DNA from: an uncultured Bacteroidales bacterium
Lineage (GTDB): Bacteria; Bacteroidota; Bacteroidia; Bacteroidales; WCHB1-69
Length of the DNA: 36,163 bases
Direction: 5' to 3'
NCBI GenBank assembly: GCA_905236885.1
Contig: CAJOQK010000114.1
Span: 1-36,163 of the forward strand
This document shows, piece by piece, positions 1,177 through 21,810 of this stretch; the stretch's first letter is position 1; every line of letters begins with the position of its first letter. The notes under the pieces are model-generated. The model saw only the letters and a program-made list of their open reading frames with translations, was not told the DNA's origin and did no database searches. Made by a program: the position numbers and the translations under genes.

Positions 1177-3648
1177 TTATTGTTCCGCTGACAGCCGCTT
1201 TAACACCGCATCGATTTCCGGATAGAGACGGCCAATCATCACCGGACGTCCGTCCGTGCCGACAAAGCAGTGTTCCGTCTCCCCTTCCGCCAACAGTTTT
1301 CCATTTTCCAACAGGGTCATTTTGTAGGCAATGACGAACCGGACCCCCGTATACCTGACCATGCGTGTTTCAATCCGCACCATGTCGTTGAAACGGCAGG
1401 GACGCTTGAAAGCGCACTGCACCGAAAAAACCGGAGAGACCACGCCCATCGCCTCCATTTTGTCATAGGAAAAACCTATCTTCTCCAGAAGATCCACCCT
1501 TGCCTCCTCCATCCAGCGGATGTAATTGGAATGATGGGCCACCGCCATTTTGTCGGTCTCATAATATTTCACCTGGTGAAGATATGGTTCAGGCCGGAAT
1601 GCACAAGCCACATCCGATGGTTCATCCGCCTGTTGCGGCAACGGATTCTGCATAGCCTGCCGCAACAACGCCCCAACATCGGGCCGTCTCCCTTTGAAGC
1701 GGACATACAGCTCCATGGGATCAGCCGTGCCACCTTTGGAAAGAATTTCCTCCCGGAAACGGGCCGCCACCGCCTTGGAAAAAACACCCTCCTGGATAAA
1801 CTCCCCGTAAGCGTCCTCCGACAGCACCTCCGCCCATTTGTATCCGTAATAACCTGCAGCATAGCCGCCTCCAAAAATATGGGTGAACGAAGTGCTTATA
1901 CCTGTATGCGGCACCACCGGCAACATGCGTGTCCTATCCGTCGCCTGTATCTCAAAATCTTCCACCTCCCCACCAAACGGCTGCCTAATAGTATGCCATG
2001 CCATGTCCAATTGGCCGAAATTCAACTGGCGCATGGTGGCATAGCCGATGCAGAAATGCTCCATCTGCCGCAGTTTCTCCAACCAGCTTTCTGGCAAAGG
2101 TTCACCTGTCTGATAATGGAAAGCGAAGAGCTTCAAGAAATCCCGCTCCACTGCCCAATGTTCCATAATTTGCGAAGGCAGCTCCACAAAGTCACGGGCG
2201 ACCGATGTGCCGGACAAAGTTTGGAAACGCACCCGGGAAAGGATGGCATGCAGCCCGTGTCCGAACTCATGCAGCAGAGTTTGCACCTCCCTGAAAGTGA
2301 GCAGGGATGGGCGTTGTGAGGTGGAGGGTGTGAAATTGAACACTAACGAGACCCATGGGATGACCCGCTTGCCTTCCGCATTTTCGTAAGAATCACGGAA
2401 AGTGGTCATCCAGGCACCGTTCCGCTTGCTATCCCTCGGATAAAAATCCATATAGAGCAACGCCAGAACAGTTCCTTCCTCCTCCCTCACCTCATACACT
2501 TCCACCTGCGGATGATAACAGGGAATATCAGCCCTTTGAATAAACTGAAGGCCGTAGAGTCTTCCCGCCAGTGCAAAAACAGCCTGTTTTACACGCTCCA
2601 ACGGAAAATAATCGCGCACAGCCTGTTCATTGAAATCCAGCTTTTCCGACTGGTAACGCTGCTGGAGAAAAGCCCAGTCCCAAGGCTGGCAACCATCACC
2701 AATCTCCTTAATCTCCTTCTCTGCCAAAGGTTTGAAATCCGATATCAGCCGATCCAGAAAACCCTGCACCTCAGCCGGTGTTTTCAGCATGCGCTGTTCC
2801 AGCTGGTAATCCGCAAATGTCTCATAACCGAGCAGACGGGCCATTTCCAAACGAAGATTCACCATTTCACGAACCAGACTCCGATTGTCGTCATCTCCAC
2901 CCAAAGCCCTGCTGTTATAGGCTTTATACATCTGTTCCCGCAACATGGCATCCCCAACATATTTCATAAAGGCGGTATAGCTTGGAAGTGAGAGGTCAAA
3001 CAGATAACCTTCCTGTTTCCCTTTCCGCTGCGCCCGCTCTGCGGCAATCTCCAATTCGGAATCAGGCAGACCCTCCAGTTCAACTTTACGCTCCCGAGGA
3101 ACGAACAATCCAAATGACGCTGTGGCCGCCAGCACATGGTTCTTATACTGCAACGCCTTTTCCTCCAGTTCCAACCGGATGGCCTGAAACCGTTCCTTCT
3201 CCTTACCCTGCAAACAGGCGCCGTGACGTACAAAACTTTTGTATATTTCATCCAACAGCATTCCCTCATCCTCACGCAACGTCAAGACAGGCTTTTGGTC
3301 ATAAAGTGTGGCCACCCGCCGGAACAAAGCCTCGTTGGCATAATAGTCGTTCTCAAAAGCCACCGTAAGGGGAATGATTTGCTCAGCGACGTTTTGCATC
3401 TCCTCCGATGCCTCAGCTTCCAACAGATTGAAAAACAAGGAGGCCACCTGCCGATACATTTCTCCGGCACGGTCAATGGCCATTACAGTATTTTCAAAGT
3501 CAGGAGGTTCCGGCTGATTTGCAATCACCTCCAATTCCAATTTGGCAGCAGCAATAGCCTGTTCAAAGGCAGGCAGGTAATCCGATACCGAAATACGGTC
3601 AAAAAGGGGAAACTCCCCACATTGCAGTAAAGGGTTGTTTTCTTTCAT
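1177..3648 (-). CDS. M3 family metallopeptidase fused to a C-terminal acyl-CoA thioesterase domain
   Basis: The product has 823 residues if the ATG at 3648 is used; five extra codons upstream begin with TTG and are less likely. Residues 1 to about 670 form an M3 (oligopeptidase A / peptidyl-dipeptidase Dcp) zinc peptidase. HEFGH at about 460-464 supplies two zinc-binding histidines and the catalytic glutamate, and ELPSQIMEHW downstream supplies the third ligand. Such enzymes trim short peptides in the cytoplasm or periplasm; no signal peptide is seen here. After a short linker, residues about 690-823 form a complete hotdog-fold thioesterase of the YbgC/4HBT type (YYETDKMAVAHHSNYIRWME, then a body ending in EHCFVGTDGRPV). 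Both domains normally occur as separate proteins, and no stop or frameshift lies between them. The gene starts 72 nt after nrdG; a small hairpin (3689-3702) in the gap has no adjacent T-run. Confidence 0.88.
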   Translation of the reverse strand: MKENNPLLQCGEFPLFDRISVSDYLPAFEQAIAAAKLELEVIANQPEPPDFENTVMAIDRAGEMYRQVASLFFNLLEAEASEEMQNVAEQIIPLTVAFENDYYANEALFRRVATLYDQKPVLTLREDEGMLLDEIYKSFVRHGACLQGKEKERFQAIRLELEEKALQYKNHVLAATASFGLFVPRERKVELEGLPDSELEIAAERAQRKGKQEGYLFDLSLPSYTAFMKYVGDAMLREQMYKAYNSRALGGDDDNRSLVREMVNLRLEMARLLGYETFADYQLEQRMLKTPAEVQGFLDRLISDFKPLAEKEIKEIGDGCQPWDWAFLQQRYQSEKLDFNEQAVRDYFPLERVKQAVFALAGRLYGLQFIQRADIPCYHPQVEVYEVREEEGTVLALLYMDFYPRDSKRNGAWMTTFRDSYENAEGKRVIPWVSLVFNFTPSTSQRPSLLTFREVQTLLHEFGHGLHAILSRVRFQTLSGTSVARDFVELPSQIMEHWAVERDFLKLFAFHYQTGEPLPESWLEKLRQMEHFCIGYATMRQLNFGQLDMAWHTIRQPFGGEVEDFEIQATDRTRMLPVVPHTGISTSFTHIFGGGYAAGYYGYKWAEVLSEDAYGEFIQEGVFSKAVAARFREEILSKGGTADPMELYVRFKGRRPDVGALLRQAMQNPLPQQADEPSDVACAFRPEPYLHQVKYYETDKMAVAHHSNYIRWMEEARVDLLEKIGFSYDKMEAMGVVSPVFSVQCAFKRPCRFNDMVRIETRMVRYTGVRFVIAYKMTLLENGKLLAEGETEHCFVGTDGRPVMIGRLYPEIDAVLKRLSAEQ

Positions 3649-3720
3649 AAATCTATTTGTCAATGGTATGAATAATCAAAAAGGATGATTCCGGTTTCGG
3701 AAACAGCTGCAAGGCAAACT

Positions 3721-4218
3721 CTACAGCAGTTGTCCCACCTTTTCCCTCTTATGTTTTTTCCAAAAACGGTGCGTGATGTCCTCAAAATCACCATGTGCCA
3801 TCCGCTTGTACAGACGCTGGTTGGTGCGGGCGTCCTTCAAACCGCCCAAGTGTGCGATGAAAGGCCCGACCTTTATGTAATCAAAATCATTTTTGCAGAC
3901 ACTGCCGGGAATCAGCGTGCGTCCACTGTACCATGCCACCTTCAACTGCGGATAGCTCCGGTGCAGATGCCTTGCCAGATGGTTTATGTATTCCGGTTCA
4001 GCATCCCCACCCATCAGACATACACAGGTGATGCCCTTACCGTACCGCTGCAACAGCGCATCGAGTGTCTCCGGAGTCAAATCCTCACCCTCATCGTCCC
4101 ACAAATAGCGGCTGTGACAGCCCGGACAACGACAGGGACAATTGGAGATATTGACCGACAAGGTCACCTCATCGGGAATCTCCTGGAAAACCACCGCAGT
4201 ATTGACGTATTTCAGCAT
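3721..4218 (-). CDS. nrdG: anaerobic ribonucleoside-triphosphate reductase activating protein
   Basis: A 165-residue radical SAM enzyme. The start MLKYVNTAVVFQEIPDEVTL leads into NCPCRCPGCHS, which holds the CxxxCxxC iron-sulfur motif at about residues 27-34. NrdG uses S-adenosylmethionine and the 4Fe-4S cluster to make the glycyl radical on NrdD. I chose the ATG at 4218, one base after the nrdD stop, because family members begin at this point; an upstream ATG at 4242 would add eight residues and overlap nrdD. The tight junction implies translation coupled to nrdD. The length is normal for the family. Confidence 0.93.
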   Translation of the reverse strand: MLKYVNTAVVFQEIPDEVTLSVNISNCPCRCPGCHSRYLWDDEGEDLTPETLDALLQRYGKGITCVCLMGGDAEPEYINHLARHLHRSYPQLKVAWYSGRTLIPGSVCKNDFDYIKVGPFIAHLGGLKDARTNQRLYKRMAHGDFEDITHRFWKKHKREKVGQLL

Positions 4219-9396: not shown

Positions 9397-9432
9397 TAAA
9401 TTTAATTTTTTTCTCAGTAGCCAATATATGAG

Positions 9433-9490
9433 GGGTTTAAGAGTTTAAGGGTTTAAGAGTTTAAGAATTCAACCCTTAAACCTCTTAAAC
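9433..9490. repeat. TTTAAG short tandem and inverted repeats
   Basis: Four GTTTAAG units in a row (9433-9465) are followed by inverted units ending in CCTTAAACCTCTTAAAC (9474-9490). That 17-mer is the exact reverse complement of 25054-25070. The block is non-coding and belongs to a mosaic that recurs after the M16 gene. Confidence 0.65.
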
Positions 9491-9504
9491 TATGACTATG
9501 ACAT

Positions 9505-9542
9505 CAACTGTAAGGGCGAAAAAACGTTCGCCCTTACAGTTG
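9505..9542. repeat. 16-bp perfect inverted repeat (hairpin)
   Basis: CAACTGTAAGGGCGAA (9505-9520) and its exact complement TTCGCCCTTACAGTTG (9527-9542) flank a 6-nt loop. TATGAC/GTCATAG repeats lie on both outer sides (9490-9502 and 9567-9590), giving a larger imperfect inverted structure. There is no T-run, so it is not a simple terminator; it may be a small palindromic repeat element. Confidence 0.65.
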
Positions 9543-9704
9543 AACGATGACAAAAGTCCTAATCATTGTCATAGTCATCAGTCATAGTACGTCACTTCGT
9601 TCCGTGCTTGTATGGTTCATTCCATGATTGTCGGCATCACCTCGGCATAGCTCGTGCAAGCACGGCTCTGCACTCGGTTCGCACGACAGGTCATGGTCTT
9701 AGTT

Positions 9705-9739
9705 CAAAAGTAGGAGCGGATAATCCGCTCCTACTTTTG
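9705..9739. repeat. 35-nt perfect palindrome
   Basis: CAAAAGTAGGAGCGGAT (9705-9721) and ATCCGCTCCTACTTTTG (9723-9739) are exact complements around a single central base. The palindrome is flanked by TCATGG/TCATAG-like words. It lies between the nagB promoter side and the giant gene's terminator, and codes for nothing. Confidence 0.7.
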
Positions 9740-9751
9740 ATGTCATAGTAT

Positions 9752-9786
9752 AAAAAAAAGGCCGCCTTTCGGCAGCCTTTTTTTTA
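9752..9786 (-). terminator. rho-independent terminator of the giant surface-protein gene
   Basis: An A-run, AAGGC, GCC, a TTTC turn, GGC, GCCTT and a T-run form a GC-rich stem with one mismatch and runs of A and T on either side. It lies 16 nt beyond the stop codon in the leftward direction. The symmetrical runs would let it work in both directions. Confidence 0.75.
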
Positions 9787-9802
9787 CAATGACTGGGTGT
9801 GC

Positions 9803-12800
9803 TTATTTCACCACGTTCATCTTACGTACCAGACGCTGGCCTTTGTATTCCATCGTGTAGTAGTAGATGCCGGCGGAGAGTCCCTCCACGTTCAGTTCGT
9901 AGCTGTTCTCACCTGCCGTTGCAGATATCTCGGTCGTATAGAGCATCTGGCCGTTCACGCTCATCACCGTCAGAGTCACGTTCGCATCCTCAGGGACATT
10001 GAACGGAATCACCGTCGCAGTGCGGGCGGGGTTAGGCACATTCTGCTCCATGTCCCAACCATTATTGCCGATGGAAGGAACCGCATCGTCGTTGTACTTG
10101 CAGTTGAACTTCACCGACAAGGTGTCATTGGAAGTGTTGATTTCACCATCGTAGGTGTCCACATAGGCTCGCAACGTATACTGACCATTGTAGTTGGGCA
10201 CTGTGTAGGTGAGGCTGAACTCATACTCAACCGTATCATTGACATTGATGAAGTTAATGTACTCGGAAACCGTCTCCAGCACCGTAGACGAGCTGTCTAT
10301 GACATCCACACGCATCATCACCGTGTAAACCTCCGCGTTGGCCATATTGGCAACTGTCACCTTCGGGCTCACCTTTATCCGGCCCTTATCGGTTGAAGGC
10401 TGCGCAATTGACAGCACCTGCAGGTCAATGGTGTCAGGCACGTTGATGTTACCCACCAGATTCAGCAAATTGCTGGTAGCATCAGCATCGCAAGGAATGT
10501 TGGCAGTCAGTTCCAGGAAGTAGAACGGCTGCTCTTTCGAACCAAACGGCACGATGTAAGGCAGACTCATGACATGGAGCAGGCTGTCGCCCACTTCCAA
10601 ATGACGTATAATAGTATCCGTCACAACCTCTTCGCCATTCAGTTCCATAGTTACGGTCATTTTGTCCATCGGCATGTTGCTTCCATTACGCAACAACACG
10701 CTCACGAACACGGTATCACCGGCAATTTTGGAAACCTTGTCGTCAATACCGATAATGCTGTCCAACACAAGATCCTGATACACCATCATTGTAGAATCGG
10801 CAATAGTATCATTCAAGCTGTTGTCATCTTGCGATTGCATGGCAATATTCAAATAATAGTTGCCGTTGGCACGCATGTCCATATAACCTAAGATGAGAGT
10901 GTCAGTCTCATATCCCTTCAGCTGCTTGTTGTAAACATAGCTGAAGTTCTGCGTGGTCGCACCGGTCACACTGGCGAAAATGGTATCATTGGCCAAATCC
11001 ATGTTAAGGCTGGTCATATTTTCAACCACCACCTGCATCGGAACCTGATCGTTCTCACAAGCGGAAAGAGCACTGAAATCAACCGGCAGCAGACGGATGG
11101 AGGCATCCTGGTCAGCCGTGATGCAGATACGGTCCAAACTTTGGTTGGCGCCGCCGTAGCTGATGCCTTGGAACACCACACTCAAACAGTTGGAATTGGC
11201 AAAACGGCTCAAATCAACATCGTACTGCCGCCAGCCTGTAAATGTGTCAGCCACCATGATACGTCCCACTTCAGTAAAGGAAGCTCCACCGTTGGTAGAG
11301 ATAAGAACTACAGTAAGGTCTCTCCTGCTGTCAGTTGCGGAATGGGCAAACCAAAAACTCAGTTTCGGGTTGAGACAGCCGTTAATGTTCACCGCATTGA
11401 AAATGGCATTGGCAAACGCTCCGGGATTACCTGCACCGGCAAATTCCAGTCGGCCCGTACCAAAGTCCGGAGAAACTGCAGGATTCACTCCTGTACCCTT
11501 CTGATTTTCCCAAATAATGTTTCCAGACAAAGCCGTGGTGACAAATCCGTCAGGAAGCACCGAGAAGTCTTCATCATAAGGCAGTTCCACCCGTGTGGCG
11601 TCATAAACCAGACTCATAGTGTCATCCTCATCAAACACATCCGTGATATAGGACAACCTGATTTTGAGATTGTAAATACCACTGACTTGTGTAGGGACAG
11701 TTGCAACCTTGATGTTCATGTACTGCGTCGGAAGCAAACTGCCGGCGGAGACAACTGTGTCGAAATGATAATTGACGGCACCAGTCACATCCAAATTCAC
11801 TTTCAAAGGTACAGAATCGAAGTTGGCCGCTTCACGTCCCATGTTTTTGATGGTAATTTCCACAGGAGTGTTGTCTTCATAGCAAACCACATCGGAGATG
11901 GCGACAGGAGTGACAAATTCTTCCACAAGCAGATTGACGCCGTCCCACATCTTGGCACCATAGCAGCCCATAGCTGTAACAGAGGCTCTGAGGTTACCAT
12001 TCAAGTCTGTGGTGACTTCACTGATGGAAGGACAAAGAAGCGAATCGTAGTCATTCAGTTCCAGTCCGTCACGCAAACGCACCCAGGAAGGTTTCACCTT
12101 GATGCTGTTGCTGTCCTGGCCCGTTACAGATTGGAAATCGGCAATGGTGGTTTTGGCAGCGCCAGCATAACCCACATTGGTCGGAGAATAAAGGTCATTC
12201 CATTCACGCAGGCTATATGTGGACTGGTAATAGGTGGTGCTGATATACAACGGATAGTTGGTCGAAGCACCGTCCGCCACCAGAATGTTACGTGTAATGG
12301 AAGGAATTCCTTGTGTGGTAGTATTGCCTAACCCGAGGTACATACCATAGGAAGTGGTGGTTTCCGAACTGCTGTACACACTGTTGTGATGGATATCCAA
12401 ACTACTGTAGTAACCATACACATACATACCGTACTTGGTTCCATTACCCATGACACGGATTTCATTATTGGCAACCAAAGCCCTGTTGTGGGTATAACTG
12501 GTGGAATTCTGATAATAATAGAGTTCCATGCCATATCCGGTAGAGCTGCAGTTCACAGTAATTCTATTGCCAATCACCTCTTTGAAGTTACTGTAATAGT
12601 AGGCATACACCCCATAGTAGCTGCTGCTGCTGGAGCGGCTGGTGATGCGGTTGTAGTTCAGGCTGCGGATAGAGGAATAGTAATAGATGTACATGCCATA
12701 GTAGTAGGCTTCGGTCAGCACATTGCTGTCAATGTACATGGAGGCCATCGGCATGTTGGCCGTTCCGCCAGCCATGTAATAAATGTACATGTTGTAATAG

Positions 12801-15800
12801 CCGCCCACAATATTGTTGGCCGTCAAATGGATATTGACAGGGTACTTGGAGCTTCCACTGGCATTGGGATAGCTGAAAGCCTTATAAGTGTTGGACGTGG
12901 CCGTGATGCTGGCGTAGATGTTGCACTCGCGGATGGTAATATGGCTACAACTGCCTTCCATCTGCACACCGACAAGTCCGTTTTTGGTGTTGCCGAAGGT
13001 AATTCCTTTGAACAACAGGTAGGAAACGTCGTTAAGGGTGAGAGAAGGTTCGGTAGCTCCTCCATCAATTACAACAGTACCGTTGTCCGGCAGGAAAGTG
13101 ACAGTCTTACTTACGCCTGTTCCCGGAATTTTACCGAATAAAGTGATTGGCGCATAGGTTCCGGCGCGCAGCTTCATTACTACCGGAGCAGAGACACCGC
13201 AGGAATAGAGAGCAATCTGCATCTCATCAACAGTGGAGAAATCGGCGTTAGTTCCACCAACAGTATAGGTTCCGGCCAAACCGCCAGTGCAGAGATATTC
13301 CTTTAATGTAACGGTGTCATTCACCTTGCTGGCATCCGTACCGTTGTTAGGGGCGCTGACCCAGGCGATGATGCTGTTCAATTTCTTCTGGATAGGGATG
13401 ATGCTGCCCAACTGCACCTTTTCGGAAGCGAAGGAGGGCAGGTTCCCCGTCCATTTCACCGCGTTTTGCGCAACGCCATTGACAGTCCAGTTAATGGTTA
13501 CGCTCTTCAGCGTGTCCTTTCCGAAGTTGGTCAGGGTGACATACACAGGTGAAAGGGTGGAATCCAGTTTCGTGTCAGCAAAATCCTCCAACGCGGCATC
13601 CAGGTCGTAGAAGGAGGCCTCGAAGGCACCCATGGCAGTCTTTGCAGCCCGGATGGAGTTTTCAAAGTCAGTTGTCACATCGCTCAAACGAGGCATCAGC
13701 ACATTGCTGTAGTCGGTCAGTTTCAAGTTGTTGGCCGTATTGGCAAACTTAACCGGCACGCTGATGCTATGTGCATCCTGGCCGTTGGCCGACCGCAGGG
13801 ATGCCAGCGTGCTTTGAGCGCTTCCGTAATAGCCCACGTAGGTACCGCCACCATAGTAGTTGTTGTAGTCGACGTTGGCGATGCCCGCAGTGGTGGAGCC
13901 GGCATAGATAGGATACTGGCCCGCATCCGTAATTAAGATATTACCCTTGATGTTCATCACATAAGCGGTGGAAGAGCTGTAATACAACGCGCGACCCGCT
14001 CCGGTTCCGGACACGAGGATTGTGTTGTTGTAGAAGTTGGCCCGGCTGTAGTACAAATAAGTTCCATAATAGGTGCTGGTGGTGTAAGCCTTGACCGTAT
14101 TATTGGCAATCAGTGCATAGTCGGTGGTCAGATTATAGTTGATGTAATACAGGTACATACCGTAAGGATATGTAATGTTGGAAGCTTTGGTCGCGTCCAT
14201 ACTGTTACGGAGAAGACCATCCTCCACATTGCAGTAGTACAGCCTCATGCCATACCAATAGGTGGATGCACTGCTTGTGCGGGAATATAGGACATTGTCA
14301 GTAATGTGCTTGAATGTGGTGTAATAGTAGTAAGTGGCATAATAGTACTGGTTCCAAATCTCATTACTGTCCACAACCACATCTTCATTGTAAGAGCCGG
14401 TACCCTCACCATACAAATAGATACCATAGTATCCACCCTCAATTTTGTTGCCAACTATGCGCATACCCTTCACCAGTCCAGTGCTACTTGGTTTGTAGAT
14501 AGGAGTGATTGATGTGCTGCTGGTGTTGGTCAGGTTGGCCTTGATATAGTTGTTGAGGATATCAATGTTCTCACAAGCACCCTTAATGTGGATGATACCG
14601 CCGGCGGAGGCGGTGGTTGACTTCATGGTCAGGTTACGGATGGTCACATTCTTGTTGCCGCTCATACTGATAAGTGCGGAAGTGGTGGTTGTCACCGTCA
14701 CACTGTCCCTGTTTTCCGCCATGGATGTGATGGTCAGGTGGTAGTTGCCCATTGCATTCGCAATGATGGACAAATCCATGATGGAAGAGGTGGAATAAGT
14801 CCCAGTTTCCAAAGCAATCGTCACATCTCCAGACACACCGCAATCGTTCATCTTCTGAATCAGATCGCCAATCTTGGCCAAAGTGTAGTCTGCACTCTTT
14901 GAATTGCCGATCACAACCAAGCCGGATACGGTGCTGCTGCAAATTGTACGCTTGTAGCTAATGGTGTCATTGGCCGGCGTATTGTCATTTGGTATGGAAA
15001 TATATGCCTCAAACGTATTGGTGCCGTCCTGGAAGGCAAAATCACCCAACTTTACTGTATCTTTCTGCAAATATGCCAACGGCTTGGCAGGATGATATGC
15101 AAACGGGGCGGAGGCGGTACCATTGATGCTCAACACAATTGTAGCGGAGTCTATCGGCATGGAACCATAGTTGACAACCACTACGGAAAGCGGATGGGTT
15201 CCAGTAGAAGTGAGTGCATCCACTCCTACAAATTCAAGCAGTGCCGCATCGGTAGAATCGGGCTCAAGTCCGTAGCAGCCCATGGCGGTATTGCCGTTGC
15301 GCGGGGCTGAAAACAGGTCCTCATTCACATTGTAGGCCACTGGGCAGAGATAGTCTTTGCTATTGTTCATCTGCAGGTTGGTGAGCGTGGAGTTGGACCA
15401 TACGGGGGTGATGTTCACAGAATGCTGATCCTGATCCTTTGACACAGCCTTGATGGCAGAGAGCGAGGTCTTGGCAGCACCGGCCAAGTAGGCAAGGTTA
15501 CCGGAACGACTGCAATAGTTGTTATAGTCACGGTATCCATAACTGGTCACCTCACTGCCGGAATAGCTGTTGTAAAGGGCATAGCCGGTGGTGTAGTCAT
15601 TGACCAGAATATTGTTGAACACATTGACAGGATAGCCGCTGGTGCTGTTGTACAGGTACATCGCATAGGTGGTTGAGGAACCCTTCGCGTAGATGGAGTT
15701 GTTGACAATATTGTACTGTGCATAGCAGTACTGGTAGATTCCATACTTTGTTCCGTTTCCGGTCAGAATAATCTCATTGTTGGCAATAGGTCCCGGTTTT

Positions 15801-18800
15801 CCGCTATATGAAGGATAGTTCTGGTAGTAGTACAGGTACATGCCATATCCGGTGGAACTGTTGTTAAGATAAATGCGATTACTCACAATCTTATCGTTGT
15901 TGTGATAGTAATACAGGTACATGCCATAGAAAGCGCTGGCATGACTGCCGTTAGTGATCGTGTTGTAGGAAATGCTCTTAAAATGGTTGTAGTAATAAGA
16001 GTAGATGCCATAGTAGTAGGCACCGCTGAGCACGTTGCTGTCGATGGTCACCGAGGCGGTCGTCATCAGGGAGGTGCTGCTGGCGGTATAATAGAGGTAG
16101 AAGTTGTAGTAGCCACCACTGATGTTGTTACCAATGAATCGCACGTCTTTCAGGTAGTTGTCACTTCCGGAGGAGTTAGTGTACCGGACTCCCGCATAGG
16201 CGTTGTTGGTGACGCTTGCCGGAGCCATGATGTTACAATGGACAAACTCCACATTGACGATCATGCCTGCCAACTCGACCGCATTCACAGTACCCCTGAA
16301 GGTGATGTCACGAATAAAAACGTTCGACACCTCTTTCAGATAAGCGCCGCTGGTGGAAGTGAAGACCACGTCCGCACGGTTTCCGCTTTCCGAGCGGATG
16401 GTGATGGTGTTCTTGGCAGTAGTGTTATTCAGGAATTCAATGTTCAGGCTCTCATAGTTGCCGGATTTCAGTTTCAATTCGACCGGCCCCTTGATGCCGC
16501 AGTAGCGGATGGTGTTGATGGCATCATCAATGGAGATATAGTCGGCGGTGGAGTCACCCACGGTGAAACTGCCGGAAATGGCGGTGTCACAGCCGTAGAT
16601 ATCCAGGAATAGCGTGTCATTCAGCGTAAACCCATCCGTTCCGTTGTTCGGAGCGTAGCAGAACACCGTCAACTTGTTGGGACCGGCATTCAACCGGATG
16701 CTGCTGAGGGTGAAGCTCACAGTGTCGTCGACAGCCAGCGAGCCGCTCCAGTTTACAGGAGCGGAAAGGATGCCGTTGAGTTCAAACTGCAGTTTGCCGG
16801 AAGTGATTGTAGTCTTGCCAGTGTTGGCCAGCAGGACGGTCAACGGAATATTTGAACTGATGCTGCCATGGTCTTCCGGTGAAATGATTTCGCGGATGGC
16901 CAAATCCAGGTTAGCGGGATGGAAATCCCACGCTCCCATGGTAGTAACCATGCTATCACGGGTGTCGTTGTTGATATCATAGCCCACCAGCGGGAGAGTC
17001 TTGCAGGAAACGCCATTACTGTCAGCCAGCTGCAAGCTGCGGTTCACATTGATAAAGTTCGGCATTGTGAAGACCGAGTTGCTATCGCAGGGAACCTGTC
17101 CCACCCATGCGGCCATCGTCGTTCTCGCAGCACCGGCATAGCCGATATTCGGGGACTTCGGATAGGTATTGTAGTAGGCGTTATTGTTCAAGTTCAGCTG
17201 TCCATTGGTCACATAAGTGGTGGAACCCAGATAGACCGGATAGCTGTTGAGCGTTTCGGAGTTCATCACAATGATGTTGTTCTGGAAATCCATCGTGGAA
17301 TAGGCGGAGCTAGCCACGTACAAACCTCTGTTGCTGGCGTTGGCAGGCGTCAGGTAGAGGGAGTTGTGGTAGATTCTCGGATGGCTGTAGCTGTTGACAT
17401 AGATACCATATCCGGTGGAACCGCCGAAAGCGGAACGGATCTCATTGTTGATGATATAGCCGATGTTTGTGGTGGTGTCACCGAAATAGTACAGGTACAT
17501 GCCATAGTAGATGGTCTGGCAGTCAAAGCGGTTGTTGATGATGTCCGCATTGGAGTAATAGCCGTATACCGGATACATGTTGCCAGGCGTGAAGTTGCCG
17601 CTACGCTGGACCAGGCTGTTGTCCCTGACGGTAACGGAATCGCTGTAGTACAAATAGAAACCGTAGGTATCGACAAAGCCGATTTCATTGTTTTCCAAGC
17701 GAATGTTACTGATTCTGGCTGATGAGCTGGAGCCGTACACGTAGAAGGCGCAGGCACCACCCTCCACCAGATTGTCATGCACATACACATCGTGAACGTT
17801 TTCTCCAAGCATATAGACAACGCTTTGGTTGGTGCCTGTCACAGCACCGGCAAAATTCTTGGGAACATACATGTAACAATTATGCACCTCGATATCGTGG
17901 CTCATGCCGGTAATCATGATACCATGGCTGTAAGTATAGCTGCCAGGGAAAGGATTCATACCGGACAGCGTGACATTTCGGATGATGATATCATGTCCGC
18001 CGTCAATCATGATAGCGGCCAGATTGGTAGTGGCATTGTCAGCACGTTGTAGCACCACGCTGGTGCTGTCACCAGTATAGGAGGTAATGGTCAGCGTATT
18101 GGTTGCAGAGGCACCCGGAATGTCACCAATGACCAAATTCATGGTGTCGGTCATGGGCAGGATGCTCAAAGTCACCGGGCCGCTCATTCCACAAACCGTC
18201 AAATTTTCAATGGCTTCCGGAAGGGTCTTGAAGTAACCGGTGTCACCCACCGTATAAGTGCCGGCAAAAACACTGGAACAGGCATTAAGCCTATAACTCA
18301 CCGTATCATCCAGATTGTTAGTATCCTGTAAAGTGCCGAGATTGACAATATAGGCTTTCACTTCATTGGTTCCGGCAGTCAGCACACAACTTCCTAACGC
18401 AACTGTGTCAGACTCCCCTACCTGCAGGCTACCTGTCCAAGCCACAGGATTACCTTGAGCAACTTTATTGAGTTCCAATTGAATACTTGCAGCAGTCAAT
18501 GTAGTCAGACCACCATTCTGCAATATTACAGAGGGACGGATGGTGTCGCCCGCTAAAGAATTGACCGGTAAATCCAACAATTCAACCAACACACCGTTCA
18601 CAGCAGGAGGTTCGCTGGAATAGCAGCCCCTAGTGGTTCTGGAGACACGGGTGTTACCGTCAACATCAGTGTTCACACCATGATAACTGGGGCATTCCAA
18701 TCCCACATACAGACGAGGACGCAGAGAAGTGGTTGTGTCCATAAAAACAGGATGCACATTAATGTCGTTGACCGCTGTCGGAATGGTGCTCACCCATGCC

Positions 18801-21775
18801 TTCAAGTCACCGATGGCACTGGAGACATAACCCACATAGCGGTCTCCCCACCAGCAGTTGTAGTCAAAGTCAAAATTGGCCACACCCGTGTTGCTGGAAG
18901 AATAGAACGGATAACTCGTGCTGGCACCCGTGGCAACTGAAATGTTGTTCCTGATAGTGCCAAAATAAGATGAGCCATACAAATAGGAATAGATGCCGTA
19001 ATGGGTCGAAGCCGAGCCGTAGGTAAGCACTGTATTATTGACTAACGCCGCTCCGTAGGGATAGTAGAAATAGATACCGTAGGAGGTTGTGTTGTCATTG
19101 TGGATGATAACCTCATTGTTGCTCACCACAGTGGCGGAATCCATGTAATAGATCCTCATGCCGTAATGGTAATTGGCATAGCCGTGAGTCCGCACCCTAT
19201 TGGCATCAAAGAGGGAACTGTCATTATAATAAGCTGTAAGGCCGTAATAGTAGGTGTAACCTGTCTCCCACTCCTCCAACACATTGTGGGTAAACTTCAT
19301 CTTGTTGTAATAGAAATAGGTAGGCTCATAATAGGCACCCGCAATAAAATTGCTGTCAAACAAAATATTGCTGTTTTTGACCGCACTGCTGCTTCCGTAG
19401 AAATAGATACCGTAGCTTCCGTACAGAATATCATTGCCGATGAAGCGGATGTTGTTGACCGTACTTCCGGAAGCCTTGTAGATGGTGGAATAGAGATTCG
19501 AGGTGGAAGCGGAATTTTTCCAGCCCAAAATCTTGCAATGGTTGAATTCCACATCATCACAGTCAGCGCCAAAATAAACACAGTAGCTCTGTGCCGAATC
19601 GGCGTCAAAAGTAATGTTCCGGAAGGTGATGGAAGAGGTTCTGTTCAAGGTAATCACCTCCCCTTTCAAAGGCTGGAAAATTACACTGTCGGCATTCTCC
19701 GCCATGGAGGAAATGGTCAACCTATGACCGTTCAGTCCTGAGAAACCGGTAAAATCCAACCCTTCCTTGTATAGGCCGCTGGCCAGTTTCAGGTTGATAT
19801 CCCCGCCGATGCCGCAGGTGTTGAACAGGAACAACGCATCCTCCATGGTCTGGAAGTCATACTGCTTGCCGGTTCCCACGGTATAGGTTCCGGACATCAG
19901 GCTGTCGCAGCCGTAGGCAACCACAGAAAGGGTGTCGTCCTTCAACACCGAATCAACCGCGTTGTTTGGCTTGCTCACCCATACAATAATGGTGTCATAA
20001 GCATTCAAGCGCTGTGTGTATTTTCCAATCGTCATGGTATCCTTAAAGTCGGTGGGCAGATTTCCGCTGTAAGTGGCCGGATTCTGCAACACACCGTTCA
20101 CCGTCCAGTTGACCAATGCGGAAGTCAGATTTTTGTCACCCCTATTCTGTAATGAAATTTTCACAGGCTGGATACCGGCAACAGTTCCCTCCTGCGGATT
20201 GTCAATACTGGCCATAGCCACGGAATTGGAGTCAAAATTGGCACCTTTCCCCAAGCCCAGACGAATCAGAGGTAGCATTGTAGAAGTGGACCATGTTCCG
20301 CTGTAATTGTAAACGCAGCGGTTAGACTCCAGGTGACCGGCCCAATAGGTGCTGGTACTGTTAGTGGTACCTCCAGTACCTTCATAAAAAATATAGAGGT
20401 TCTTTCCCGGAGGAAGCACAAAGGTCTGGTCAAGCGTAACGATGTTCCAGGTCTGTGTGGTGGTAGTGGTTCCACGATAAACCAACGTGGCTCCGGCAGT
20501 GACCGGATCCATGGCTCCTGTAGGCATAGTCGCATCGTTGGTAGCCATCATATATATATCAATGTTACGGGTCACCACGGCAGTCTGCGGATTACCGCTA
20601 TTGCTGAGCGGACGCAGGTACCAGGCCAGCTCCGTAATGCTCAAACCGGCACCGTTAGGATCCAATTCCGATGCAAGATAAAGGGAACGGGTGTGTGTAG
20701 TGGTGTAGTTCAGATGGTAGACAATGGCCAGGTTGTTGTTGGTGGCCGCTGTCGTATCCCCATCATATTTATAATAGGCGTAACCGGAAACACTGCCCCC
20801 AACCATACGCTTTGATGTGAAGGCGGCGGCAGCGCGTGCCTTGTTGCCTGCAGAGTCGGCACCGTCAATCCAATAGGCAATGGTGGTACCGTACACATGC
20901 TGCGGAATGACGGCATTCCAGATGGAGTCACCCTGAATGGCAGTCATTTTGATGGAATCGGCAACAGTCACAGAATCTTTGGTGGCCGTATAATGCAGAA
21001 CAGGATGAATCATGCCAATGCCGGAACGTCCGGCCACTTTGGCTTTGATATTATATGGTCCAACCGTATAGATGGTATCGTTGAAAGTGGTCAGAAATTC
21101 AACCACGGGAAGATTAAGGGCATACTGGGAGGCCATCACCTGGAAATCGTCAATATACCATCCGTCCGCGATGAATGAGCCGAAATAGTTACCCTTTTTG
21201 ATGACAAATTTGAAACGGACCGTTGAATAGCTGGCATAGTCGCTCATGTCAAACACCTCCTCATTCCACCAGCCGTTGTTGGCCATGGCAAAGGTATCCT
21301 CCGCCTGCCATTCGGAATAGGAAGTGTGGTCAAACGACAGATTGACCCGATAGGAGGCACATTTGCCCTTATAGGCATCATAAGGAAGCGGTTTCCAACG
21401 GCTCCCCAAATAGTCCTCCTGATACATCACCTGACAAAGGTCGCTTTGCAACACTTTACAGATATGACTGAATTTCACCAACACAAACTTGTAGTTGGAA
21501 CAATCATAGAAGGGGGTTATCAACTCCACGGTATCACCCGCATTATAAGGTACATAACCGTGCATGGAATAGTTCCCGCTCACAGCCAGACTGGAACCCG
21601 AGGCCCAAGTCGGCATGGTGACAGTGGAAACAGGATGTGCGGACCAACCCTGCGGCAAAACAGCGGAAAACTGCTCATTTGCGAGATAGGTCGCCTGCGC
21701 AAAGACTCCACCTATGGTGGCAATCATCATCAGCGCAAACAGCTGTACTTTGTAAAATTTTTTAAAATACCTCAT
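9803..21775 (-). CDS. giant secreted beta-helix adhesin-like protein with T9SS sorting domain
   Basis: About 3990 residues (roughly 430 kDa). I start at the ATG at 21775, which gives a standard signal peptide (MRYFKKFYKVQLFALMMIAT, cleavage near 26); ten further codons upstream would begin with TTG. The order is: a MAM/jelly-roll-like domain (about 27-215, ending SFIADGWYIDDF), an Ig/Fn3-like domain (220-325), a beta-rich domain (330-510), an Ig/CARDB-like domain (527-620), five modules of about 550 residues (621-3275), a second MAM-like domain (about 3398-3555), several CARDB-like domains (3560-3890) and a type A T9SS C-terminal domain (about 3900-3990; NVPNPART through GIYYYTMEYKGQ). Each module is a right-handed parallel beta-helix with Tyr-rich rungs such as YYGMYLYYY. 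Export through the outer membrane and surface anchoring follow from the sorting domain. Ligand and function are unknown; no catalytic motif is seen. Confidence 0.85.
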   Translation of the reverse strand: MRYFKKFYKVQLFALMMIATIGGVFAQATYLANEQFSAVLPQGWSAHPVSTVTMPTWASGSSLAVSGNYSMHGYVPYNAGDTVELITPFYDCSNYKFVLVKFSHICKVLQSDLCQVMYQEDYLGSRWKPLPYDAYKGKCASYRVNLSFDHTSYSEWQAEDTFAMANNGWWNEEVFDMSDYASYSTVRFKFVIKKGNYFGSFIADGWYIDDFQVMASQYALNLPVVEFLTTFNDTIYTVGPYNIKAKVAGRSGIGMIHPVLHYTATKDSVTVADSIKMTAIQGDSIWNAVIPQHVYGTTIAYWIDGADSAGNKARAAAAFTSKRMVGGSVSGYAYYKYDGDTTAATNNNLAIVYHLNYTTTHTRSLYLASELDPNGAGLSITELAWYLRPLSNSGNPQTAVVTRNIDIYMMATNDATMPTGAMDPVTAGATLVYRGTTTTTQTWNIVTLDQTFVLPPGKNLYIFYEGTGGTTNSTSTYWAGHLESNRCVYNYSGTWSTSTMLPLIRLGLGKGANFDSNSVAMASIDNPQEGTVAGIQPVKISLQNRGDKNLTSALVNWTVNGVLQNPATYSGNLPTDFKDTMTIGKYTQRLNAYDTIIVWVSKPNNAVDSVLKDDTLSVVAYGCDSLMSGTYTVGTGKQYDFQTMEDALFLFNTCGIGGDINLKLASGLYKEGLDFTGFSGLNGHRLTISSMAENADSVIFQPLKGEVITLNRTSSITFRNITFDADSAQSYCVYFGADCDDVEFNHCKILGWKNSASTSNLYSTIYKASGSTVNNIRFIGNDILYGSYGIYFYGSSSAVKNSNILFDSNFIAGAYYEPTYFYYNKMKFTHNVLEEWETGYTYYYGLTAYYNDSSLFDANRVRTHGYANYHYGMRIYYMDSATVVSNNEVIIHNDNTTSYGIYFYYPYGAALVNNTVLTYGSASTHYGIYSYLYGSSYFGTIRNNISVATGASTSYPFYSSSNTGVANFDFDYNCWWGDRYVGYVSSAIGDLKAWVSTIPTAVNDINVHPVFMDTTTSLRPRLYVGLECPSYHGVNTDVDGNTRVSRTTRGCYSSEPPAVNGVLVELLDLPVNSLAGDTIRPSVILQNGGLTTLTAASIQLELNKVAQGNPVAWTGSLQVGESDTVALGSCVLTAGTNEVKAYIVNLGTLQDTNNLDDTVSYRLNACSSVFAGTYTVGDTGYFKTLPEAIENLTVCGMSGPVTLSILPMTDTMNLVIGDIPGASATNTLTITSYTGDSTSVVLQRADNATTNLAAIMIDGGHDIIIRNVTLSGMNPFPGSYTYSHGIMITGMSHDIEVHNCYMYVPKNFAGAVTGTNQSVVYMLGENVHDVYVHDNLVEGGACAFYVYGSSSSARISNIRLENNEIGFVDTYGFYLYYSDSVTVRDNSLVQRSGNFTPGNMYPVYGYYSNADIINNRFDCQTIYYGMYLYYFGDTTTNIGYIINNEIRSAFGGSTGYGIYVNSYSHPRIYHNSLYLTPANASNRGLYVASSAYSTMDFQNNIIVMNSETLNSYPVYLGSTTYVTNGQLNLNNNAYYNTYPKSPNIGYAGAARTTMAAWVGQVPCDSNSVFTMPNFINVNRSLQLADSNGVSCKTLPLVGYDINNDTRDSMVTTMGAWDFHPANLDLAIREIISPEDHGSISSNIPLTVLLANTGKTTITSGKLQFELNGILSAPVNWSGSLAVDDTVSFTLSSIRLNAGPNKLTVFCYAPNNGTDGFTLNDTLFLDIYGCDTAISGSFTVGDSTADYISIDDAINTIRYCGIKGPVELKLKSGNYESLNIEFLNNTTAKNTITIRSESGNRADVVFTSTSGAYLKEVSNVFIRDITFRGTVNAVELAGMIVNVEFVHCNIMAPASVTNNAYAGVRYTNSSGSDNYLKDVRFIGNNISGGYYNFYLYYTASSTSLMTTASVTIDSNVLSGAYYYGIYSYYYNHFKSISYNTITNGSHASAFYGMYLYYYHNNDKIVSNRIYLNNSSTGYGMYLYYYQNYPSYSGKPGPIANNEIILTGNGTKYGIYQYCYAQYNIVNNSIYAKGSSTTYAMYLYNSTSGYPVNVFNNILVNDYTTGYALYNSYSGSEVTSYGYRDYNNYCSRSGNLAYLAGAAKTSLSAIKAVSKDQDQHSVNITPVWSNSTLTNLQMNNSKDYLCPVAYNVNEDLFSAPRNGNTAMGCYGLEPDSTDAALLEFVGVDALTSTGTHPLSVVVVNYGSMPIDSATIVLSINGTASAPFAYHPAKPLAYLQKDTVKLGDFAFQDGTNTFEAYISIPNDNTPANDTISYKRTICSSTVSGLVVIGNSKSADYTLAKIGDLIQKMNDCGVSGDVTIALETGTYSTSSIMDLSIIANAMGNYHLTITSMAENRDSVTVTTTTSALISMSGNKNVTIRNLTMKSTTASAGGIIHIKGACENIDILNNYIKANLTNTSSTSITPIYKPSSTGLVKGMRIVGNKIEGGYYGIYLYGEGTGSYNEDVVVDSNEIWNQYYYATYYYYTTFKHITDNVLYSRTSSASTYWYGMRLYYCNVEDGLLRNSMDATKASNITYPYGMYLYYINYNLTTDYALIANNTVKAYTTSTYYGTYLYYSRANFYNNTILVSGTGAGRALYYSSSTAYVMNIKGNILITDAGQYPIYAGSTTAGIANVDYNNYYGGGTYVGYYGSAQSTLASLRSANGQDAHSISVPVKFANTANNLKLTDYSNVLMPRLSDVTTDFENSIRAAKTAMGAFEASFYDLDAALEDFADTKLDSTLSPVYVTLTNFGKDTLKSVTINWTVNGVAQNAVKWTGNLPSFASEKVQLGSIIPIQKKLNSIIAWVSAPNNGTDASKVNDTVTLKEYLCTGGLAGTYTVGGTNADFSTVDEMQIALYSCGVSAPVVMKLRAGTYAPITLFGKIPGTGVSKTVTFLPDNGTVVIDGGATEPSLTLNDVSYLLFKGITFGNTKNGLVGVQMEGSCSHITIRECNIYASITATSNTYKAFSYPNASGSSKYPVNIHLTANNIVGGYYNMYIYYMAGGTANMPMASMYIDSNVLTEAYYYGMYIYYYSSIRSLNYNRITSRSSSSSYYGVYAYYYSNFKEVIGNRITVNCSSTGYGMELYYYQNSTSYTHNRALVANNEIRVMGNGTKYGMYVYGYYSSLDIHHNSVYSSSETTTSYGMYLGLGNTTTQGIPSITRNILVADGASTNYPLYISTTYYQSTYSLREWNDLYSPTNVGYAGAAKTTIADFQSVTGQDSNSIKVKPSWVRLRDGLELNDYDSLLCPSISEVTTDLNGNLRASVTAMGCYGAKMWDGVNLLVEEFVTPVAISDVVCYEDNTPVEITIKNMGREAANFDSVPLKVNLDVTGAVNYHFDTVVSAGSLLPTQYMNIKVATVPTQVSGIYNLKIRLSYITDVFDEDDTMSLVYDATRVELPYDEDFSVLPDGFVTTALSGNIIWENQKGTGVNPAVSPDFGTGRLEFAGAGNPGAFANAIFNAVNINGCLNPKLSFWFAHSATDSRRDLTVVLISTNGGASFTEVGRIMVADTFTGWRQYDVDLSRFANSNCLSVVFQGISYGGANQSLDRICITADQDASIRLLPVDFSALSACENDQVPMQVVVENMTSLNMDLANDTIFASVTGATTQNFSYVYNKQLKGYETDTLILGYMDMRANGNYYLNIAMQSQDDNSLNDTIADSTMMVYQDLVLDSIIGIDDKVSKIAGDTVFVSVLLRNGSNMPMDKMTVTMELNGEEVVTDTIIRHLEVGDSLLHVMSLPYIVPFGSKEQPFYFLELTANIPCDADATSNLLNLVGNINVPDTIDLQVLSIAQPSTDKGRIKVSPKVTVANMANAEVYTVMMRVDVIDSSSTVLETVSEYINFINVNDTVEYEFSLTYTVPNYNGQYTLRAYVDTYDGEINTSNDTLSVKFNCKYNDDAVPSIGNNGWDMEQNVPNPARTATVIPFNVPEDANVTLTVMSVNGQMLYTTEISATAGENSYELNVEGLSAGIYYYTMEYKGQRLVRKMNVVK
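11950..19915 (-). repeat. array of five coding modules, about 1.65 kb each
   Basis: Each module opens with a cysteine and a GTYTVG-like motif, at about 19913, 18285, 16597, 14945 and 13295, giving steps of about 538-563 codons. Each closes with a GYAGAAKT-like segment, then VTTDxNGNxR and a MGCYG-like motif. Tyr-rich rungs occur in the same order in every module. Modules 3 and 5 are the most alike. Identical DNA words persist: the 17-mer TACAGGTACATGCCATA is at 15831, 15912 and 17490. The array arose by duplication of whole modules, followed by drift. Confidence 0.8.
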
Positions 21776-21802: not shown

Positions 21803-21810
21803 CAAATGTA
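21803..21810 (-). promoter_or_regulatory. possible -7 box for the giant gene (TACATTTG on the minus strand)
   Basis: TACATTTG fits TAnnTTTG and lies 28 nt before the ATG at 21775. It overlaps the alternative TTG start, which argues for the ATG. No TTTG -33 element is evident at the usual spacing. Confidence 0.4.

Follow-up and report, generated by a model that had tools for sequence, protein, structure and literature searches.

A single gene of a genome fragment from an uncultured Bacteroidales bacterium raises the question of what a protein of 3,990 amino acids, assembled from large tyrosine-rich repeats, may do for its cell. The window, i.e. the whole stretch of 36,163 nucleotides that was analysed, encodes the protein on the minus strand in one frame with no internal stop, from an ATG at 21775 to a stop codon at 9803-9805. 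A sequence-only reading had proposed an uninterrupted frame of about 12 kb at 9803-21775; the coordinates were exact, and the strand, absent from that reading, is minus. A longer frame with a TTG start (to 21805) is possible. The ATG start yields the typical signal peptide MRYFKKFYKVQLFALMMIATIGGVFAQ, which inspection of the sequence bore out as anticipated. The signal peptide is followed by an N-terminal region, five pairs of an Ig-like linker and a module of about 440 residues, a C-terminal region and a type A sorting domain of the type IX secretion system (T9SS) (Table 1). The upstream element TACATTTG is similar to the Bacteroidota -7 promoter element TAnnTTTG, a putative assignment. The hairpin and T run at 9751..9786 are likely an intrinsic terminator by their sequence; the terminator scan did not list this hairpin. 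Rfam had no match anywhere in the window. The neighbours are ordinary housekeeping genes: upstream a divergent M16 peptidase, downstream a glucosamine-6-phosphate isomerase-like gene and, farther away, PBP2 and RodA. Neither SusCD nor a glycan-utilisation locus nor a carbohydrate-active enzyme adjoined the gene in the window searched. The intergenic stretch 9430-9750 carried two perfect inverted repeats (arms of 18 and 17 nt) and a short repeat of the CTTAAAC type, and similar pieces were found again next to a paralogue on contig C43 of the same genome. At 1177-3663 (minus strand), an 828-residue frame joined an M3 peptidase to a 4HBT thioesterase-like domain, an apparent fusion or a lost stop codon.

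Table 1. Features of the giant gene and its flanks; positions are those of the window.
Feature	Residues	Position	Strand	Basis or remark
Whole gene	3,990 aa	9803..21775	-	T9SS cargo, five beta-helix modules
TAnnTTTG-like element TACATTTG		21803..21810	-	27 nt upstream of ATG; sequence inspection
Signal peptide MRYFKKFYKVQLFALMMIATIGGVFA	1-26	21698..21775	-	Sequence inspection
N-terminal region	27-530	20186..21697	-	Probable beta-sandwich domains; conserved in several paralogues
Ig/CARDB-like linker before module 1		19925..20242	-	Linker HMM
Beta-helix module 1	618-1053	18617..19924	-	Pairwise alignment
Ig/CARDB-like linker 2		18299..18616	-	Linker HMM
Beta-helix module 2	1160-1617	16925..18298	-	Pairwise alignment
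Ig/CARDB-like linker 3		16610..16924	-	CARDB 16.4 bits, under cut-off
Beta-helix module 3	1723-2169	15269..16609	-	Pairwise alignment
Ig/CARDB-like linker 4		14960..15268	-	Linker HMM
Beta-helix module 4	2273-2719	13619..14959	-	Pairwise alignment, two-module model
Ig/CARDB-like linker 5		13310..13618	-	All-beta, about seven strands in two-module model
Beta-helix module 5	2823-3273	11957..13309	-	Predicted structure
Module 5 tyrosine ladder	172-357 of module	12239..12796	-	Seven successive PB1 strands, Y-G-x-Y-x-Y
C-terminal region	3274-3905	10061..11956	-	Jelly-roll-like and Ig-like stretches; CARDB match at aa 3784-3884
T9SS type A sorting domain	3906-3990	9806..10060	-	TIGR04183, PF18962
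Hairpin, 16-nt arms, then T run		9751..9786	-	Directly past the stop codon

The five modules (436-458 residues each) all aligned pairwise with 27-40% identity and E values of 3e-16 to 3e-75, so the claim of five repeats with a common order of motifs, which a failure of the repeats to align would have overturned, stood. The proposed unit of about 550 residues was right as a period and wrong as a single domain: each period consists of two domains, a beta-helix of about 440 residues and an Ig/CARDB-like linker of about 105 residues. The inter-module stretches could be aligned with each other, and the one that was modelled is an all-beta Ig-like domain. At the DNA level, only one repeat pair of 140 nt with 71% identity was present within the gene; recent tandem copying of the modules was ruled out by the low DNA identity between them, and the duplication is therefore old. 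Curated libraries matched the protein solely by the sorting domain and one CARDB stretch. The profile checks suggested by the sequence-only reading thus had a mixed outcome: TIGR04183 matched, CARDB (PF07705) matched on the whole protein (25.8 bits, cut-off 22.7) with weak matches under the cut-off for single linkers, and among Pfam and NCBIfam models no beta-helix family was found on the protein. Pfam Beta_helix (PF13229) did not match the protein itself, but 10 of 36 family modules, the best with 5.6e-15. The N- and C-terminal beta-sandwich regions had neither a PDB or Pfam match above the cut-off nor a match to each other, and the full-length sequence retrieved nothing useful from the PDB.

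The fold was obtained from structure prediction. AlphaFold2 modelled module 5, with 36 module sequences as input, as regularly repeating strands with a pLDDT of 92.6 and a pTM of 0.93, and Foldseek and VIA-align placed the model among the right-handed parallel beta-helices, with VIA-align Z scores of 27.8 for NosD, 27.5 for the Sf6 tailspike and 27.4 for AlgE4. PL6, PL9, inulin fructotransferases and GH136 enzymes followed as lower matches. The family profile found pectate lyase (3.9e-6) and pectinesterase (8.7e-6) in the PDB. In the nomenclature of beta-helices a coil is read PB1-T1-PB2-T2-PB3-T3 (PMC9410043), and the predicted coils of the module follow this order within one helix. The beta-helix postulated from the sequence was thereby supported by a confident model with strong structural matches; a prediction lacking a beta-helix would have refuted the earlier reading. 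Its long fibre fared less well. A model spanning two modules was confident inside the domains (pLDDT 87.7) but had a pTM of 0.54, hence the relative orientation of the modules is not fixed by the model. The protein is better described, on these models, as beads on Ig linkers than as a single rigid rod.

Tyrosine made up 10.9% of the residues within the modules versus 4.7% outside. The motif Y/F-G/A-x-Y/F-x-Y/F occurred 19 times, compared to a mean of 0.96 and a maximum of 5 in 1,000 shuffled sequences. In the coils of module 5, the Y-G-x-Y-x-Y strand leads through a turn to a second strand, which an invariant Asn separates from the third. Over eight coils of 222 modules, this Asn was 98% conserved at turn T2 and formed an Asn ladder; we take this to be the T2 ladder position expected from pectate lyases, and the tyrosine strand is therefore PB1. 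PB1 is the substrate-face sheet of beta-helix enzymes; in pectin methylesterase, the active-site cleft is made of PB1 with T3 and T1 (PMC8392785). The 222 modules came from several Bacteroidales families, and the ladder pattern recurred within the genus of the window and in further genera of its family as well as further families of the order. Tyrosine occupied 70% of the ladder positions +0, 71% of +3 and 44% of +5, and 40% of the aligned tyrosines were concentrated in 6% of the alignment columns. Position +3 had an entropy of 1.87 bits, compared to 2.47 and 3.21 bits for the core positions +2 and +4 and 3.10-3.16 bits for outward positions near PB2 and PB3. By parity, i.e. from the strand alternation and the hydrophobic residues at +2 and +4, the ladder tyrosines should point outward. 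A charged column conserved at 50% or more was absent from PB1 of the ladder coils in the 222 modules, and the outward ladder positions were about 10% charged. Conserved charged columns were located near T2 or in the terminal caps, D435 and R441 being fully conserved in the C-terminal cap. The conserved catalytic charged residues on PB1 that would mark a carbohydrate-active enzyme (PL, GH or CE) were not found.

Export by the T9SS, as well as the type A sorting domain on which it was predicted, was supported. The sorting domain scored above both curated cut-offs (TIGR04183 33.0 bits, cut-off 23; PF18962 33.3 bits, cut-off 27), and the same genome encodes SprA (2,438 bits), a PorU-type sortase (1,154 bits) and in total 61 sorting domains above the cut-off. 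No beta-barrel family matched the C-terminus as translocator of a type V autotransporter; the C-terminus is the T9SS sorting domain.

The module is abundant in this genome of 2.21 Mb: at least 37 module matches were located on 12 contigs, and the module-bearing frames add up to about 30,700 residues, approximately 4% of the genome. The end of a second giant gene with the same sorting-domain sequence was observed at 11975-12125 of locus L025, just upstream of the C43 paralogue at a contig edge. Tandem arrays therefore exist, and the genome has at least 12 loci; several of the paralogues stop at contig breaks. In three further genomes of the genus, 17, 39 and 41 module matches were counted. Matches were present in 70 of the 104 genomes of the bacterial family, with one or two copies in some genera and at least seven in others. 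A restriction of the module to this one family was rejected, as 46 of 295 genomes of the order had a module match. The named relatives were Bacteroidales metagenome-assembled genomes (MAGs) from sources such as water-buffalo rumen and a sludge digester; an Ignavibacteria MAG was among those that matched more weakly.

In a tree of 146 modules, each module of the window protein grouped with the modules in the same position of same-genome paralogues and of relatives from three other genomes. This grouping makes it probable that the order of the five modules predates the genus; where a gene has fewer modules, some appear to have been lost. Positions conserved in this way between paralogues and species would be anticipated for modules that each serve a binding task of their own. 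The final 290 nt of the gene, a stretch that runs beyond the stop codon, matched the end of the C43 paralogue with 88% identity (window 9753-10045 versus L025 1-289). The remainder was far more divergent, a pattern suggestive of gene conversion between paralogues at the sorting-domain end. Homologues with varying numbers of modules, a search for which had been advised, were found. Two same-genome paralogues (L016 2-7654 and L020 7445-15535) carry two or three modules together with long stretches of BspA-type LRR and InlB B-repeats, and other relatives join the module to MAM, GEVED, Ig_7, fn3 and SprB repeats; none of seven scanned proteins carrying the module had a catalytic domain. One relative was an open frame of 11,871 residues in genome G187 (G187:C35:8626-44240) with 26 head-to-tail modules of about 438 residues and no Ig linkers. 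Its adjacent modules were 48-67% identical, the best pair 77%. It has a signal-peptide-like start, carries fn3 and SprB repeats after the modules and reaches the contig end, thus the protein is longer than 11,871 residues. Two interrupted frames were seen among the relatives. In a five-module relative from a water-buffalo rumen MAG, the linker that joins module 1 to module 2 contained one in-frame TAA (L034 2904-2906, the same gene in L057), a real interruption or an assembly error. In another Bacteroidales MAG, an in-frame TGA was situated within a module (L035 6465-6467), with the frame open on either side.

We consider it fairly probable, with a probability of roughly 0.6, that the protein of the window is a giant non-catalytic surface adhesin. 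The signal peptide would direct it to Sec for passage across the inner membrane and the T9SS would then carry it across the outer membrane, where the PorU sortase may cut off the C-terminal domain and the protein is probably anchored. Outside the cell, five right-handed parallel beta-helix modules would be spaced by Ig/CARDB-like linkers. The seven consecutive coils with tyrosines on the outer face of PB1 would give each module a flat aromatic strip about 30 Å long, at the position where beta-helix lyases and hydrolases bind their polysaccharide, minus the charged catalytic residues. Strips in series could bind a repetitive ligand with high avidity, most likely a glycan of plant cell wall, mucin or exopolysaccharide. 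We infer surface location, anchoring, binding role and ligand. As judged from sequence, the best functional clue is the company of adhesin-type domains, and multivalent surface binding is favoured because of these domain partners together with the conserved uncharged aromatic face of PB1. Aromatic strips bind sugars via stacking, and the PB1 face binds polysaccharides in beta-helix enzymes; for both reasons, a glycan is the candidate for the natural ligand.

The main rival is a homotypic association: the tyrosine strips may zip molecules of the same or neighbouring cells together into a coat, fibre or aggregate. An outward tyrosine ladder on a beta-solenoid has been proposed as dimerisation surface in models of ice nucleation proteins (PMC9418140). 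The conservation of tyrosine-rich strips across many families would fit a generic self-interaction, and the high copy number as well as the 26 near-uniform modules of one relative a structural role. We nevertheless regard such a coat as unlikely, as modules of different positions are separate old lineages with 27-40% identity, more diverse than a uniform coat would require, and varied adhesin domains are present in the relatives. Somewhat less probable still is that the tyrosines only stabilise the solenoid and the protein acts as a spacer for presenting its N-terminal region at a distance from the cell. Beta-helices gain stability from aromatic stacks and Asn ladders (PMC9410043), stacking is clearly important in a module with 98% Asn at T2 over eight coils, and the N-terminal regions are conserved across many paralogues. 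Stabilising stacks, however, are usually interior, whereas by parity the tyrosines at +3 and +5 face outward, and +3 varies less than the core position +2; some relatives, e.g. the 26-module protein, have a module right at their start and no N-terminal region to present.

An enzymatic function, with the modules each belonging to an undescribed family of polysaccharide lyases, esterases or glycosidases that work along PB1, appears very improbable. The fold neighbours are mostly carbohydrate-active (GH136 lacto-N-biosidases, PL6, PL9, AlgE epimerases), and export together with relatives in rumen and digester would fit glycan degradation. Yet the PB1 face is without a conserved acidic or basic residue, its outward ladder positions being rarely charged, the fully conserved D435 and R441 lie off PB1, and curated lyase families gave no match at E < 0.1 in 36 modules. 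The preference of the sequence-only reading for binding over catalysis is upheld by the sequence evidence, with no charged residue conserved on PB1 and adhesin-type domains in the relatives.

Parts of this architecture, namely T9SS cargo, beta-helix, Ig linkers and giant adhesins, are already known. For the family of tyrosine-ladder modules, the expansion of its repertoire and the 26-module relative, no description was found in the libraries and open-licence papers searched. New relative to the earlier reading are the minus strand, the tyrosine ladder on PB1, the recognition of the Ig linkers as domains in their own right and the expansion across the genome. The chances are about even that these proteins represent an as yet unnamed family of giant T9SS adhesins of the Bacteroidales, in which the substrate-type face of PB1 became an aromatic binding rail, with a repertoire expanded within the genome (here 37 or more module matches and about 4% of the DNA), module positions that are old separate lineages, and one relative that reaches 26 head-to-tail modules and exceeds 11,871 residues. 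In rumen and digester, uncultured Bacteroidales spend a large share of small genomes on such proteins. If the tyrosine strip is a binding surface, a fold of glycan enzymes has been turned into a repetitive adhesin, and with few conserved tyrosines the binding reading is directly testable on one module of 450 residues.

Well-studied T9SS cargo are mostly single enzymes, gingipain-type proteases or adhesins of other folds. With type A cargo the protein shares the signal peptide, a sorting domain above the cut-off and the T9SS genes of the genome; it differs by five tandem beta-helix modules. The SprB gliding adhesin of Flavobacterium is likewise a giant T9SS-exported surface protein, and the 26-module relative carries SprB repeats, but the window protein has a type A sorting domain and no match to SprB repeats (PF13573) at E <= 1. 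With the pectate-lyase-like beta-helices (NosD, AlgE4, PL1/6/9, phage tailspikes) the module shares the fold (Z 23-28), the Asn ladder at T2 and a weak profile relation to pectate lyase and pectinesterase; identity in the structural alignments is about 10-16%, and PB1 has tyrosines in place of catalytic charged residues. Ice nucleation proteins also bear an outward tyrosine ladder on a repetitive beta-solenoid (PMC9418140), but with 16-residue coils and TxT motifs, compared to coils of about 27-34 residues in a three-sheet helix. In the cell-wall adhesins Awp1 and Awp3 of Candida glabrata, a beta-helix exposes a regular ladder on PB1 (PMC8746771), a likeness for which no sequence relation is claimed; their ladder consists of Ser/Thr and Asn on a single beta-helix in a yeast cell wall. 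The Awp proteins offer a precedent for an adhesin in which the PB1 ladder of a beta-helix is exposed.
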